Positions 51,593-57,464 of a DNA stretch of 64,000 nucleotides are shown piece after piece. The DNA is taken from positions 1 through 64,000 of the forward strand of contig JHUT02000010.1 of assembly GCA_000690595.2 (NCBI GenBank). The letters run 5' to 3'. The position numbers were made by a program, and so were the translations under genes. How positions within the stretch are numbered: the stretch's first letter is position 1; each line of letters begins with the position of its first letter. The notes beneath the pieces are model-generated. The model did not search any database. It was given only the letters and a program-made list of their open reading frames with translations, and had not been told where the DNA came from. The DNA is from Natrinema mahii (lineage in GTDB: Archaea > Halobacteriota > Halobacteria > Halobacteriales > Natrialbaceae).

Positions 51593-53305
51593 ATGAGCGA
51601 TCCGCGCGTCGTCACGACGCTCGACTCGTTTCGCGCCGCCGCTTGCGACCCCGAGCCCGGCGCGTCGACCCCCCGTGACGCCCCGGCGACGCGCACCGGA
51701 CGCCGCGTTCCCGTCGAGGTGCGACTCACCGTCGACGACCCCTTCGCCGCCTACCGCCGCGCCCGCGACGGCGAGGGCGGTGCCTTCCTCGAGACGACCG
51801 GCGGCCAACCCGGCTGGGGCTACTTCGGCGTCGATCCGATCGACCGGCTCACCGTCGGCCCCGACGCAGTGGCACGAGCCGAGGGTGGCTCGCCGACGCT
51901 GGCCGCTCTCGAGGGCCTACTCGCCGCCGACGGACTGGCGCGGGGCGACTGCGACGTCCCCTACCCCTGCGGGGCCGTCGGCTGGCTCTCCTACGACGTC
52001 GCCCGCGAACTCGAGACCCTCCCCGAGTCGGCGGTCGACGATCGAGGGCTGCCGCGGCTCGAGGCCGCGGTCTACGACCGGCTGGCGGCCTGGGAGGCAC
52101 CGGTCGACGGCGAGACGACGCTGCGGATCACGGCCTGCCCGCGAGTCAGGGCCGGCGACGCGGAGGAGACGCCGTCCGACGACGCGCTCGAGGCCGCCTA
52201 CGAGCGCGGCCGTGACCGGGCGCTCGACCTCGCCGCGCGGATTCGCGAGGGCGATCCGACAGTCGGCGACCCGCCGGTCTCGAGCCCCGAGGCGACCTTC
52301 GAGAGCGACTGCGGCCGCGAGGCCTTCGCCGACCGCGTGCGGCGGGTCAAGGCGTCCGTCCGCGATGGCGACACGTTTCAGGCGAATATCTCCCAGCGGC
52401 TGGTCGCGCCCGCCGCGGTCCACCCCGTCGCCGCCTACGACGCCCTGCGGCGGGTCAATCCCGCGCCCTATTCCTGTCTGCTCGAGTTCCGGGCGGCCGA
52501 CCTGGTCAGTGCGAGTCCCGAACTCCTTCTTGAGCGCGAGGCGTCGCACGCCTCGGAATCCGCGAGCGGTGCGGGGCGCGAACACAGTGAGCGCCCCGAT
52601 GGAGCGAGCGGGGAGGAACGACCCGCGAGCAGACGACCCGCGAGCGACGGCGAGTTCGTCCGGACGGAGCCGATCGCGGGCACCCGACCCCGCGGCGAGA
52701 CGCCGGTCGAGGACGACGCGCTCGAGGCCGACCTGCTGGACGACGAGAAGGAGCGGGCCGAACACGCGATGTTGGTCGATTTAGAGCGCAACGACCTCGG
52801 AAAGGTCTGTGCGTACGGCTCGGTCGACGTCGCGGAGTATCGCCGGATCGACCGCTACTCGGAGGTGATGCATCTCGTCTCGAACGTCACGGGTAGACTC
52901 CGGCCCGACGCCACGTTGTCGGACGCCGTCGGCGCGGTCTTCCCCGGCGGGACGATCACCGGCGCGCCCAAACCGCGGACCATGGCGATCATCGACGAGC
53001 TCGAGGCGACCCGGCGGGGCCCCTACACCGGCAGCGTGGGGATCTTCGGTTTCGACGGCCGTGCGACGCTGAACATCGTCATCCGGACGCTCGTCCGGCA
53101 GGCCGAGGAGTACCACCTCCGGGTGGGCGCGGGGATCGTCCACGACTCCGACCCCCAGCGTGAGTACGACGAGACCTTGGACAAGGCGCGGGCGCTGATC
53201 ACGGCCGTCGACGAGGCGCTGGGCGAGCGGGCCGCACTGGGCCTCGAGGCCGAAAGCGACGAGGCGAGCCCGGAGACGGCCGACGGGGGTGAGCGGGGTG
53301 ACTGA
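51593..53305 (+). CDS. pabB: Aminodeoxychorismate/anthranilate synthase component I
   Basis: Chorismate-binding subunit making aminodeoxychorismate (folate/p-aminobenzoate) or anthranilate. The 570-residue product has the chorismate-site blocks [57 protein letters not shown] and [11 protein letters not shown]. The Ala of PIAGT is TrpE-like, while the neighbouring pabA and class-IV lyase gene argue for PabB, so the product is uncertain. Between SPELLLERE and [10 protein letters not shown] an insert of ~38 residues (about 316-353) is encoded by DNA built of hairpins like the intergenic repeats. The stop overlaps the start of pabA. Confidence 0.82.
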
Positions 53306-53951
53306 GTCGCGGACCCGCGTTCTCGTGGTGGACAACTACGACTCGTTCGCGTACAACCTGGTCCAGTACGTCGGCGAAGTCGCGGACGAGGTGATCGTCC
53401 GCCGGAACGACGAGATCGACCTCGCGGGGGTTCGGGCCCTCGAGCCGACGGGGATCGTCGTCTCGCCGGGGCCGGGCACCCCGCAGGAGGCGGGGATCTC
53501 GATGTCGCTGTTTGCCGAGACCGAGTACCCGATTCTGGGGGTCTGTCTGGGCCATCAGGCGCTGTGTGCGGCCAACGGCGCGCCGGTGGGCCACGCCCCC
53601 GAGGTCGTCCACGGGAAACCGTCGACGATCACCCACGACGGGACGGGACTCTTTGACGGGCTGCCCGAGACGTTTCGGGTCGGCCGCTATCACTCGCTGT
53701 CGGTCGAGCGCGCTGGCCTGCCGGACACGCTCGGGGAAACCGCCCGGACGACCGACGATCGCGGCGTCCTGATGGCGGTCCGCCACCGCGAGAAGCCCCA
53801 GTTCGGGGTGCAGTTCCACCCCGAGAGCATCCTCACGCGGGCGGATCCGGGCGCGGCCGGCGAGGACGGGAGCGGCGAGGAGATCTCGCTCGAGGTGGGC
53901 AAACAACTGATCGCGAACTTCTGTCGGCTCGCCGCCCGTGCCGACCGATGA
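53298..53951 (+). CDS. pabA: Aminodeoxychorismate/anthranilate synthase component II (glutamine amidotransferase)
   Basis: Glutaminase subunit supplying ammonia to component I. The 217-residue class I amidotransferase has [28 protein letters not shown], the nucleophile Cys in [11 protein letters not shown], and the catalytic His-Glu in [11 protein letters not shown]. The start GTG at 53298 gives the usual family N-terminus ([11 protein letters not shown]) and overlaps the pabB stop by 8 nt; a GTG at 53289 is possible. The 3' end marks the left border of an inserted island. Confidence 0.9.
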
Positions 53952-54141
53952 GTGTCTCGTCGCAAAGGGATACATTGCGGCAGGAGCAGTAGCTGGTCCG
54001 GTCGCAACGGCAATTTTTTCTGGGGTTGCGGCGTATTGGGCGGTCGTCAACATCAAAAACGACGGCTGCGGTGTCGTCATTAAGACAGACGTTAGCCCGG
54101 TCGACCCGCTGGTCCCGACTCCGACCGTGGGCTCGCAATAA
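53938..54141 (+). CDS. Small hydrophobic protein or gene remnant, 67 aa
   Basis: A GTG frame that begins 14 nt inside pabA in another frame and runs into the island. It has one hydrophobic segment (AAGAVAGPVATAIFSGVAAY) and two Cys. Codon choice is more AT-ending than in pabA. Because its start lies in pabA, it may be the 3' end of a gene whose 5' end was lost when the island joined pabA. Confidence 0.35.
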   Translation: MPTDECLVAKGYIAAGAVAGPVATAIFSGVAAYWAVVNIKNDGCGVVIKTDVSPVDPLVPTPTVGSQ

Positions 54142-54176
54142 CAGCTACAAACTTCAGCCACTTACAGTATGACAGT

Positions 54177-54569
54177 ATGAGTCAGACAACTGACGACATA
54201 CGAAAGATCGCTGTCCCCATCATCGTTGTAGCGACAGCGGCGGCCTTGATATATCCTGAGATTCAGACCCTGATACGTGGTGACCCACTTGGTAGCGGGA
54301 TCACTGATGTCGTTGTTGGTCTACTAGCTATCGTCTTGTACGTTAGTTTGAGTCTCATAACCCGGGCCTCAGATACGTCTGGGTTTGGAACTCAGGCTGA
54401 AAGATGGACCGTTTTGGCTCTGCTAGCAGTGGTCATCGGTATCAACACCGTATTGATCTATGCAGTGCCAGACTCCCCAGAGGCAGTAGGAATGCTAATT
54501 GTCTGTGCCGTCGGTGCGCTGGTTGTGTTCTTTGAACCGAATGGTGGAAGCTCAAGTCCACAGTCGTAA
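54177..54569 (+). CDS. Hypothetical four-span membrane protein, 130 aa
   Basis: Not recognised. Four hydrophobic segments (about 10-26, 41-59, 75-92 and 101-117) with short loops. Codon usage is markedly AT-richer and the protein less acidic than the flanking pab genes, which suggests recent acquisition. An ATG follows a ttacagtatgacagtatg motif, so an upstream ATG eight nt earlier (54169) is out of frame and ignored. Confidence 0.6.
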   Translation: MSQTTDDIRKIAVPIIVVATAAALIYPEIQTLIRGDPLGSGITDVVVGLLAIVLYVSLSLITRASDTSGFGTQAERWTVLALLAVVIGINTVLIYAVPDSPEAVGMLIVCAVGALVVFFEPNGGSSSPQS

Positions 54570-54970
54570 GGCAACATCTCCAGAGAGCGTTTGATACTGA
54601 TAGACACCATCCAACCAAAGAAATAAGCCAATCATAGAACCGATGCAACTCGCAACTGTATAGCAGTCCGTCTGCGAATGATCACCCCCTCATCGACGTA
54701 CAGATACACTTGGCGTCCCATCGATCTCGGTCGTCTCTATTCGGACCACACAGAACAGCAACAGAAATCTAATTCACTCACTGTCGCAACGAACTCGTCA
54801 CTACTCGGGTCCCGTTTCGCGTTCGACACAGCATGGCAGTCCCGATCGAACGCAACATCCGCTACGGAACTCGAGTACGAATCAGGACGTATCGAACCGT
54901 CCGAATCCGGCCGGCTACGGAGGGCCGGATTCGACTCGCGAAAGCGACCACCCGGCAGTGTGCAGCGGCC
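54570..54970. other. 401-nt AT-rich spacer in the pab island
   Basis: I see no supportable gene. The composition is AT-rich up to about 54800 and then returns to GC-rich. A 117-codon frame (54678-55031) is open but its product is rich in Ser/Thr/Arg without any domain. No repeat of the window's hairpin families is visible. Confidence 0.4.
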
Positions 54971-55189
54971 TCAGCGATCCCGTTCGATCACCGTGACCGC
55001 GTCGGGGTCGGGACCCACCACGACGCGATAGCCCGCGTACTCGAAGCGGACGGTGACGGTCGGGTTCGACTCGAGGACCGCAGTCAGCGCCTCGGTGTCG
55101 ACCGCGTCGCCGAGGGGCGGCAGACCCGCCACGGCGCGGTCCTCACGGGCCGCGATACACGTCAGTGCCGTAGCGAGTGCTGGATGCAT
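54971..55189 (-). CDS. HalOD1-like output-domain protein, short
   Basis: 72 residues with the HalOD1 pattern: LATALTCIAAREDRAVAGLP, then LGDAVDTEALTAVLES, and the paired strands VTVRFEYAGYRVVV. The start is an ATG at 55189 and overlaps the end of the zinc-ribbon frame by 47 nt in another frame. Related to the HalOD1 protein at 2065. It may be a partner of, or once joined to, the zinc-ribbon protein upstream. Confidence 0.6.
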   Translation of the reverse strand: MHPALATALTCIAAREDRAVAGLPPLGDAVDTEALTAVLESNPTVTVRFEYAGYRVVVGPDPDAVTVIERDR

Positions 55190-55322
55190 GGTGATCGTCG
55201 GAGCGTTCGACGAGCGCGAGTTCGAACGTCGTCTCGCAGTCCGGACACGTGGTCGGACCGTCGGTCGGTGCGATACGGCTGTCTGTCCCACAGTCGCAGT
55301 GGATGGTGATGCTCGAGACCAT
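55143..55322 (-). CDS. Small zinc-ribbon protein
   Basis: 59 residues, with a four-Cys ribbon in ITIHCDCGTDSRIAPTDGP, then TTCPDCETTF. Small zinc-ribbon/HalOD1 gene pairs occur in haloarchaea. The last ~15 codons overlap the HalOD1 frame, so the boundary of either gene may be wrong or a frameshift may have separated one fused gene. Function unknown. Confidence 0.5.
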   Translation of the reverse strand: MVSSITIHCDCGTDSRIAPTDGPTTCPDCETTFELALVERSDDHHASSTRYGTDVYRGP

Positions 55323-55421
55323 AGGTCGTTGCTGTGGCCCCGGCGCGGCGGTACGCAACCCAGCGAGGGCGTCGGCGACGGGAGCGACTGGTCGGCGAGA
55401 CGTCGGCACTTCTTTATTTCG

Positions 55422-55562
55422 CCACCGTCAATGGTGGATTGCTCCCGCTACGCGGGGGCGATAGTTGAGCCGGAGCGCAGGCCTCCAAGCAAGCACTCCG
55501 GCTCAGCGCACTTTCGTGCGCGTCTGTACGTTACGGAATCTATCCTAAAGAACGTTAGGATA
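55422..55562. ncRNA. Array of five perfect hairpins, possible structured RNA or insertion-sequence end
   Basis: Five stem-loops follow each other in 141 nt: CCACC/GGTGG (55422-55437), GCTCCCGC/GCGGGGGC (55441-55459, one G-U pair), TGAGCCGGAG/CTCCGGCTCA (55466-55505, 20-nt loop), GCGCAC/GTGCGC (55506-55521) and TATCCTAA/TTAGGATA (55541-55562). A TATA-like ttctttattt (55410-55419) sits just before the first. The first two hairpins resemble the subterminal hairpins at the 3' end of IS200/IS605-group elements, whose ends also give guide RNA for TnpB; no tnpA or tnpB remains here. Confidence 0.5.
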
Positions 55563-55771
55563 TTGATTGGTTGGGTGGGTAGTTGGTGGCTCGAGAGACG
55601 GAACGATGCCGTGGTTTGCCCGTGCTATCTACAAAATGTGGTGGCTATCGATCGGCGCGTCTCCGAGACACATCCCAATAACAGCCGATGTACACGACAG
55701 TTGGACTGGGGAGTTCAACCCGGCTGACAACGGTGAGACGACACGCCGGAGCAGATCCCCGTCAGTGCTTA

Positions 55772-56101
55772 TTACAGCGACGTATAGCCGCGAAGCGCCT
55801 CGATAGCCTCCACAACGAGTGCGTCCGCGAGTTTCCCCTGCTGATTGTCGAGATCTCGGTGTTTGATCGTCGTCACGTACCACGGAGAAACGTATGCATC
55901 CGCGTTCGATCCACCTCGAGTCCACGCCTCGTCAGGAACGGCAATGCCATCGGGGTGATCCTGTGTCGTCATTCCGACGGCGATACACTCTTCGGCTGCG
56001 AACGGATGTGAGGTATCGCTTACGACGAGCCACGGACGATACGCGGCATCGGATTTGTGCGGTGCTGGCCCCCACCAGACCTCTCCTTGCAGATCGGTCA
56101 T
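55772..56101 (-). CDS. PemK/MazF-like toxin
   Basis: 109-residue toxin of the MazF/PemK fold, normally an mRNA endonuclease. It has the typical start GEVWWGPAPHKSDAAYRPWL, VVSDTSHPFAAEECIAVGMT and IKHRDLDNQQGKLAD near the end. Its gene directly follows that of a small HTH protein with no gap. The pair lies in the island that splits the pab genes, on the opposite strand from pabA and pabC. Confidence 0.8.
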   Translation of the reverse strand: MTDLQGEVWWGPAPHKSDAAYRPWLVVSDTSHPFAAEECIAVGMTTQDHPDGIAVPDEAWTRGGSNADAYVSPWYVTTIKHRDLDNQQGKLADALVVEAIEALRGYTSL

Positions 56102-56461
56102 CTACTGTTCCGTATCGTCCGTCTCGACACCGGGACCCCACTCGTCGGGATCTTCCGGACCGAGTCGATCGGTCGCCGCACGAGCGGTCGCCAACGCGGT
56201 GAGCGTTTGCTCGGGGTCCTCGTCGTCGGCAACTGCCCAGTACTCGCCGCGGTGGCGGACGAGGCCGCGGTCTTCTAGCCGGGACAGGACGACGCCGACG
56301 CTCCCTCGTGCAACGCAGGTCGCCTCGTGGATCTCGTTCGGCGTGAACGCCTGCTCGGGCGATGACGCGAGAAAGGAAAGAATCTCTTCCGCGTTCGTCC
56401 GCCCGTTCGCTCGAAGTTCCGTCACCGGATCCTCCTCGAACCGTTCGATGTCGATGGGCAT
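56102..56461 (-). CDS. Winged-helix antitoxin-type regulator
   Basis: 119 residues. An N-terminal acidic segment (MPIDIERFEEDP) precedes a MarR/IclR-like winged helix (NAEEILSFLASSPEQAFTPN, then EIHEATCVARGSVGVVLSRLED, RGLVRHRGEYWAVADD). It stands immediately upstream of the MazF-like toxin gene, the normal antitoxin position. Haloarchaeal HTH/MazF pairs with this order are known. The ATG at 56461 is used; an upstream open frame overlaps the operator-like palindrome. Confidence 0.75.
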   Translation of the reverse strand: MPIDIERFEEDPVTELRANGRTNAEEILSFLASSPEQAFTPNEIHEATCVARGSVGVVLSRLEDRGLVRHRGEYWAVADDEDPEQTLTALATARAATDRLGPEDPDEWGPGVETDDTEQ

Positions 56462-56467
56462 ATCGAA

Positions 56468-56490
56468 CCTATGTAACGAGCTGTAATAGG
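56468..56490. promoter_or_regulatory. Palindromic operator candidate of the toxin-antitoxin pair
   Basis: CCTATgTAAC and GTaATAGG form an imperfect inverted repeat around gagct, 7-29 nt before the antitoxin start codon. Two more TTACA elements lie nearby on the minus strand. This is a likely site for autoregulation by the HTH protein and overlaps where the TATA box should be. Confidence 0.45.
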
Positions 56491-56591
56491 TGTAATGCCG
56501 TGGCGGGAGTGACGACGGCAGGACTCTCGAGGCACAGCCAGCAGGTTCATACACCTCCGAGTGCCACGACGAGATGACCTAACCCACCGCC

Positions 56592-57464
56592 ATGACCGAC
56601 GACCCCATCTACCACGTCGACGGCGACCTCGTCCCCGCCAGCGAGGCGACCGTCAGCGTCGACGACCGGGGCTTTCGCTACGGCGACGCTGCCTTCGAGA
56701 CGCTGCGGGCCTACGGCGGGACGGTCTTCGCGTGGGACGCCCACCTCGAGCGCCTCGAGCGGACCTGCGAGGCGCTCTCGCTCGAGCATGGGCTCGCCGC
56801 CGCCAACCTCCGGGCGCGGATCGACGAGACGCTCGCGGCCAACGACCTCGCGGACGCCTACGTCCGGCTGTCGATCACCCGCGGCGTCCAACCGGGGAAG
56901 CTCACGCCCGACCCCGAGGTCGACCCCACCGTCGTCGTCTACGCCAAACCGCTCCCGCGGGGCGGGCTCGAGGGCGAATCGGTCTGGGACGGGCCGGCGA
57001 CCGTCGAAACCGTCGCGACGCGCCGCGTCCCCGACGAGTCGATCCCCGCCGCCGCCAAGACCCACAACTACCTGAACGGGATCCTCGCGCGCACGGAACT
57101 CGAGCCCGGAAGCGACGAGGCGCTCATGTGTGATCTCGAGGGCCGGATCGCCGAGGGCGCGACGAGCAACCTGTGTTTCGTCCGGAACGGCACGCTCCAC
57201 ACGCCGACGACCGACGGCCCGGTGTTGCCGGGGATCACCCGCGAGATCGTCCTCGAACTCGCCCGCGAGGCCGGGATCCCGGTCCGGGAGGGACGATACG
57301 AGCCGGCGGCTGTCCTCGAGGCCGACGAAGCGTTGCTGACCAACCGAACGTGGGAACTCCGGCCGATCGCGACGCTTGACGGCCAGGCGATCGGCGGCGG
57401 ACCGGTCACCGATCGGCTCGCACGGTTATACGACGACCGCGTCGAGCGGACCTGTTACGAGTAG
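56592..57464 (+). CDS. pabC: Class IV aminotransferase, aminodeoxychorismate lyase
   Basis: PLP enzyme expected to release p-aminobenzoate and pyruvate from aminodeoxychorismate, completing the work of PabA and PabB. The 290-residue protein has the class IV blocks DDRGFRYGDAAFETLRAYGG, KTHNYLNGILA (PLP Lys), EGRIAEGATSNLCFV and LPGITREIVLELA. Branched-chain aminotransferases are related, but the neighbourhood favours PabC. It is separated from pabA by the island, while in many haloarchaea the three genes are adjacent (from memory). Confidence 0.85.
   Translation: MTDDPIYHVDGDLVPASEATVSVDDRGFRYGDAAFETLRAYGGTVFAWDAHLERLERTCEALSLEHGLAAANLRARIDETLAANDLADAYVRLSITRGVQPGKLTPDPEVDPTVVVYAKPLPRGGLEGESVWDGPATVETVATRRVPDESIPAAAKTHNYLNGILARTELEPGSDEALMCDLEGRIAEGATSNLCFVRNGTLHTPTTDGPVLPGITREIVLELAREAGIPVREGRYEPAAVLEADEALLTNRTWELRPIATLDGQAIGGGPVTDRLARLYDDRVERTCYE

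Follow-up and report, generated by a model that had tools for sequence, protein, structure and literature searches.

In Halobacterium salinarum, the brz-brb operon regulates bop, and the available portions of the reports describe Brz as a small zinc-finger protein (PMC2253796, PMC3184054). Stand-alone HalOD1 proteins occur in up to 49 copies per haloarchaeal genome according to the accessible part of the relevant paper, in which we found no report of an RNA associated with HalOD1 (PMC5847659). Among the intergenic small RNAs of haloarchaea, sRNA132 of Haloferax volcanii has been characterised (PMC6560208). Here, we describe a locus of Natrinema mahii in a stretch of 64,000 nt (contig JHUT02000010.1, positions 1 to 64,000, referred to as the window). 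Our best reading is that the locus contains a predicted structured non-coding RNA gene of about 140 nt, which belongs to a multicopy haloarchaeal family and has a dedicated zinc-ribbon partner (Table 1).

The locus had been singled out for five consecutive stem-loops. These are present at 55422-55437, 55441-55459, 55466-55505, 55506-55521 and 55541-55562, with stems of 5, 8, 10, 6 and 8 bp, the 8-bp stem at 55441-55459 including one T-G pair. As originally stated, they come directly after ttctttattt (55410-55419) and lie outside any recognised ORF. The stretch folds far better than shuffled sequence (z = -5.5 for the plus strand and -6.3 for the minus strand; none of 200 shuffles was equally good), and the hairpins are thus not due to chance. 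The suggested comparison with Rfam (release 15) was carried out and gave no matches, either at the gathering score or, for the local region, at E values up to 10. A tRNA search of the window found none.

Table 1. Features of the RNA locus and its surroundings, with positions in the window.
Feature	Position	Strand	Remarks
pabA-like glutamine amidotransferase gene	53289..53951	+	left flank; PF00117
Stand-alone HalOD1 protein gene, 72 aa	54971..55189	-	overlaps end of zinc-ribbon gene
Zinc-ribbon protein gene, 59 aa, CxCG...CPxC	55143..55322	-	divergent from RNA
Direct repeat GTCGGC-N5-GTCGGC	55391..55407	+	11-bp period; just 5' of TATA box
TATA-like box TTTATTT	55413..55419	+	28 nt before helix A
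Hairpin 1 region with CAATggtggATTG	55422..55441	+	sequence conserved; helix perfect in 10/75 copies
Predicted structured RNA, about 140 nt	55438..55577	+	core of the finding; 75-copy alignment, covariation, covariance model
Helix A (hairpin 2), GCTCCCGC/GCGGGGGC	55441..55459	+	perfect in 72/75 copies
Helix B (hairpin 3), GAGCCGGAG/CTCCGGCTC	55467..55504	+	perfect in 74/75 copies
Variable loop of helix B, 20 nt	55476..55495	+	
Apical motif GCCTCCAAGC	55481..55490	+	reverse complement of GCTTGGAGGC of the commoner orientation
Helix C (hairpin 4), GCGCAC-TTTC-GTGCGC	55506..55521	+	perfect in 73/75 copies
Conserved 3' tail	55522..55577	+	contains hairpin 5 (55541-55562); 82% identity among pab orthologues
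Cargo: PemK/MazF-like and MarR-like helix-turn-helix genes	55772..56461	-	
pabC-like class IV aminotransferase gene	56592..57464	+	right flank; PF01063

BLAST identified one further copy in the same genome, with 82% identity. About 75 full copies were found in the Natrialbaceae, where 32 of 125 genomes had matches, most of them with one to nine copies. Exact pattern matches on named contigs came from Natrinema, Halopiger, Natrialba, Natrarchaeobius and Halobiforma. The block common to the copies runs from about 55386 to 55577. When 75 copies were aligned, the idea of a five-hairpin unit had to be revised: hairpins 2, 3 and 4 are conserved helices, hereafter helices A, B and C, whereas hairpins 1 and 5 are not. 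Hairpin 5 is conserved as sequence and not as a helix, its 8-bp stem being perfect in 21 of the 75 copies. The element also reaches further than the last hairpin, at which it had been taken to stop; its 3' end is close to 55577, past which conservation collapses. Comparison of 14 pab-locus copies gave identities of 91% for the promoter, 97-100% for the stems, 54% for the central loop and 33-45% for the 140 nt directly 3' of the RNA. Helix A stood at 97% across these orthologues, and its T-G pair is replaced by T-A or C-G in some copies. Truncated extra copies lie beside or near full ones at three loci (L082, 4876-4952; L074, 4928-5002; L067, 14279-14327) and derive perhaps from recombination. 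In Halopiger djelfimassiliensis, a CRISPR repeat array (Rfam CRISPR-DR24; L067, 11169-11459) is located between two RNA copies.

The pairing cells of helices A to C in the 75 copies included 98 G-U and 3 A-C combinations, the latter being what would read as G-U on the other strand. The plus strand is therefore the folded strand, and the same bias rules out a minus-strand RNA, which we had considered as a leader of the zinc-ribbon operon. In the near copies taken by themselves, the stems show so little variation that covariation is modest. A covariance model (R1), against which the window RNA scores 151 bits, was used to find distant copies in other families. In these families, helix B changes from GAGCCGGAG/CTCCGGCTC to GAGAGGGAG/CTCCCTCTC or GAGAAGGAG/CTCCTTCTC, with matching changes on both sides, and helix C of distant relatives shows double changes from A-U to G-C. 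With the distant copies included, 9 pairs had double changes, and 27 double compensatory cells were counted against 3.2 +/- 1.6 in shuffles, a count based on an alignment fitted to the model, with which a second alignment, not fitted to the model, agrees. All controls in which the helices were slid gave lower values. The three helices are thus strand-specific and supported by covariation, as in a structured RNA.

The TTTATTT box is invariant or nearly so in the Natrialbaceae copies, and most loci in distant families have an A+T box at a similar spacing. Haloarchaeal transcription begins some 25-27 nt downstream of the TATA box. The position of the box therefore predicts a start at about 55438-55442, so that, as a sequence match, the predicted RNA gene has its own promoter at the correct spacing. 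Because this start lies 3' of hairpin 1, the hairpin 1 region is predicted to form part of the promoter DNA surrounding this site, outside the RNA, which fits with its helix not being conserved. The upstream block that contains the GTCGGC repeats is strongly conserved, and the repeats may be a binding site. Of the options that the original prediction had offered, it is the new small RNA that agrees with these results: the gene is conserved, covarying and promoter-bearing, and has no match in Rfam.

The zinc-ribbon gene sits between the HalOD1 gene and the RNA. The HalOD1 assignment of the 72-aa protein is based on a PF18545 match with E = 7e-13 and 49 bits (Pfam cut-off 26.3). The zinc-ribbon protein had weak zinc-ribbon matches in Pfam, and its alignment (A3) contained eight invariant columns, including all four cysteines. 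With CxCG and CPxC pairs in fewer than 70 residues, it has the features of a CPxCG zinc-finger micro-protein and is predicted to bind zinc. An AlphaFold model was of low confidence (pLDDT 65) and too poor for use. A simple gene caller and clustering placed the HalOD1-type proteins found beside most copies in a cluster of 56 proteins.

In a profile search of 391 Halobacteria genomes, at least 75 of 85 zinc-ribbon matches had the RNA in divergent orientation within 400 nt, the two being 93-355 nt apart (median 120). Among the ten matches without a listed RNA, one (G012:C2) does have the RNA, and several are contig ends or weak, unrelated matches. Weak matches in other families (G152, G153, G310, G387 and G084) had no RNA match and are likely to represent other, unrelated small zinc ribbons. 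The pairing of zinc ribbon and RNA persists where HalOD1 is missing or degenerate, as in many Natrarchaeobius copies. In distant families, the RNA is accompanied by a diverged zinc ribbon, whether HalOD1 is there or not. This suggests that HalOD1 is a usual but dispensable part of the module. In the genome of the window, 2 of 26 HalOD1 matches are linked to the RNA, both of them among the weaker ones.

The RNA appeared to decay together with its partner. Beside degenerate zinc ribbons, which lose cysteines, the median RNA score was 118.6 bits compared to 146.2 bits (p = 0.0008, uncorrected for relatedness); the comparison is confounded, as a single genome contributes half of the ten copies with a degenerate zinc ribbon. 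At three loci (L029, L050 and L054), a good RNA is kept beside a degenerate zinc ribbon. Two apparent solo RNAs in Halopiger (L063 and L155) were dropped, as the adjoining sequence consists of a run of N; such runs reflect assembly gaps or masking and could mislead searches for solo RNAs.

In roughly half of the Natrinema species, the module and variable cargo split pabA from pabC (53951-56592 in the window). Members of the genus that lack the module have the two genes next to each other, 15-60 bp apart. The PemK/MazF-like and MarR-like cargo genes, a probable toxin-antitoxin pair, are found at the pab site in several relatives, though not in all. The second copy in the genome is in the leu operon, beside zinc-ribbon and HalOD1 genes of its own; this copy and its relatives in Natrinema, Halopiger and Natrarchaeobius lie between leuD and leuB. 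At three leu loci (L066, L071 and L073), two modules facing the same way enclose one and the same pair of genes (c27 and c28), neither of which has a Pfam match.

The 20-nt loop of helix B falls into two clear classes in the 75 aligned copies (alignment A1), with 57 forward and 18 inverted loops, the reverse complement of the inverted class matching the forward class. Inverted loops occur in several genera; the only pab-locus copies that have one are those of the window, L078 and L087. The inversion could arise without an enzyme, by template switching in the palindrome, or it may be the work of a site-specific recombinase.

The main rival to an RNA gene is a function at the DNA level, in which a mobile or integrative module would insert into operons and pick up cargo, with the hairpins serving as its recombination ends or single-strand attachment sites. 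The copies are indeed scattered, with a sporadic occurrence beyond the main family. They interrupt pabA-pabC, for which relatives have empty sites, and leuD-leuB, they carry variable cargo on the RNA side, in three cases flanked by direct module pairs, and the central loop is recurrently inverted. Nevertheless, no recurrent linked gene cluster fit as a transposase or integrase was found in the minority of neighbours that were scanned, and searches of plasmids, phages and IMG/VR found no copy of the element. The leu copy, common to several genera, looks vertically inherited. A TATA box at constant spacing and conserved protein genes point to a gene, and comparison by eye of empty and filled pab sites, with boundaries that are approximate and obscured by later cargo, gave no target-site duplication. 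We therefore consider the DNA-level explanation unlikely. Still less expected is an orphan TnpB guide (omega) RNA or a remnant of an IS200/IS605 right end, two of the options that the original prediction had offered, likening the first two hairpins to IS200/IS605 3' ends. The hairpins are consecutive, and the genome has six TnpB-like genes, but these are located elsewhere, and their surroundings contained no match to the RNA model, only chance BLAST matches of 10-17 nt. Of the two hairpins likened to an IS end, the first is not conserved as a helix. No TnpB-linked copies of the RNA were found; the well-preserved copies are tied to zinc ribbon and HalOD1, their helices covary, a promoter is present, and a guide-like variable 3' end at the insertion boundary was not seen. 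This origin appears extremely improbable, and the locus is a conserved gene module rather than transposon scrap.

An addiction pair resembling type III toxin-antitoxin systems, in which the RNA would neutralise one of the two small proteins, could explain the tight pairing of RNA and protein, the patchy distribution, the multiple copies and the co-decay. Type III systems combine an endoribonuclease toxin with tandem repeats in the antitoxin RNA. Here, no endoribonuclease toxin is seen, and the RNA consists of one unit without repeats. Pfam and NCBIfam named the partner proteins only as HalOD1/DdfA-like and zinc ribbon, neither of which has a known toxin fold, and HalOD1 is often lost while some degenerate zinc ribbons stand beside an intact RNA. 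Such a pair is decidedly unlikely. A structured RNA with a promoter that points toward pabC at the pab locus might also be the cis-acting leader or riboswitch of a downstream gene. However, the downstream genes differ between loci, and the orientation relative to the host operon varies, the leu copies pointing toward the leuD end. In the window, 1 kb and two minus-strand genes separate the RNA from pabC, which leaves a leader very improbable.

Comparison of sequences thus supports the family, the folded strand, the helices, the position of the promoter, the protein pairing and the insertion into pab, and it is highly probable that the RNA gene is real and is coupled to its zinc-ribbon neighbour. 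We infer that the RNA is transcribed, binds protein and acts in trans. It would be expressed from its own TATA-box promoter, divergently from the zinc-ribbon gene and usually HalOD1. The zinc-ribbon protein may be a regulator of the RNA, its binding partner, or both. It could act at the conserved upstream repeats, as Brz does on the neighbouring bop, or bind the three constant stems. Local control of transcription is plausible because of the Brz precedent, as far as the available parts of those reports describe it (PMC2253796, PMC3184054), and direct RNA binding is plausible because the stems are constant. HalOD1 would connect the RNA/zinc-ribbon pair to signal transduction. The RNA itself might titrate the protein or pair with mRNAs via its conserved unpaired 3' tail; a search for complementary targets in the genome gave, beyond the own copies of the RNA, one site with 3 mismatches and no long target. 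That the loop of helix B has been inverted repeatedly does not sit well with a loop that is read in one direction. This particular mechanism is tentative and on balance doubtful, whereas the RNA gene with its zinc-ribbon coupling and the mechanism, judged as a blend, are marginally favoured. Somewhat unlikely is a broader proposal, a new archaeal ribonucleoprotein class composed of a three-hairpin RNA, a dedicated zinc-ribbon partner and HalOD1 input, which would form a multicopy regulatory or integrative module with a loop flipped by recombination or template switching.

In the open-access literature, which leaves most subscription journals and preprints outside its scope, no similar RNA family was found, and the family is apparently undescribed so far. 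Among haloarchaeal proteins that lack a known biochemical role, HalOD1 proteins and zinc-finger micro-proteins rank with the commonest, and a conserved RNA gene tied to such a pair offers a concrete, testable partner. The locus also adds a strongly covarying RNA family that is absent from Rfam, and cultivable Natrinema species make it possible to study both the recurrent inversion of the loop and the way in which the module enters biosynthetic operons.

The locus shares hairpin-rich intergenic DNA with IS200/IS605 elements and TnpB omega RNA, but it has no TnpA, TnpB or IS end, its partner genes are others, and its helices covary. Like sRNA132, it would be an intergenic small RNA gene of a haloarchaeon, with a putative regulatory role; unlike sRNA132, it belongs to a covarying family that occurs in multiple copies and has a protein operon dedicated to it, a distinction drawn from description only. 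The 72-aa protein belongs to the same Pfam family as the stand-alone HalOD1 proteins (PF18545). The closest parallel is Brz/Brb, to the extent covered by the available portions of the reports: in both cases, a zinc-finger micro-protein shares an operon with a second small protein. Brz/Brb controls transcription of a neighbouring gene, and a counterpart here is proposed by analogy. According to the same portions, Brz is encoded upstream of, and co-oriented with, a protein-coding target, whereas here a divergent, predicted RNA gene is the neighbour, and HalOD1 takes the place of the second protein.
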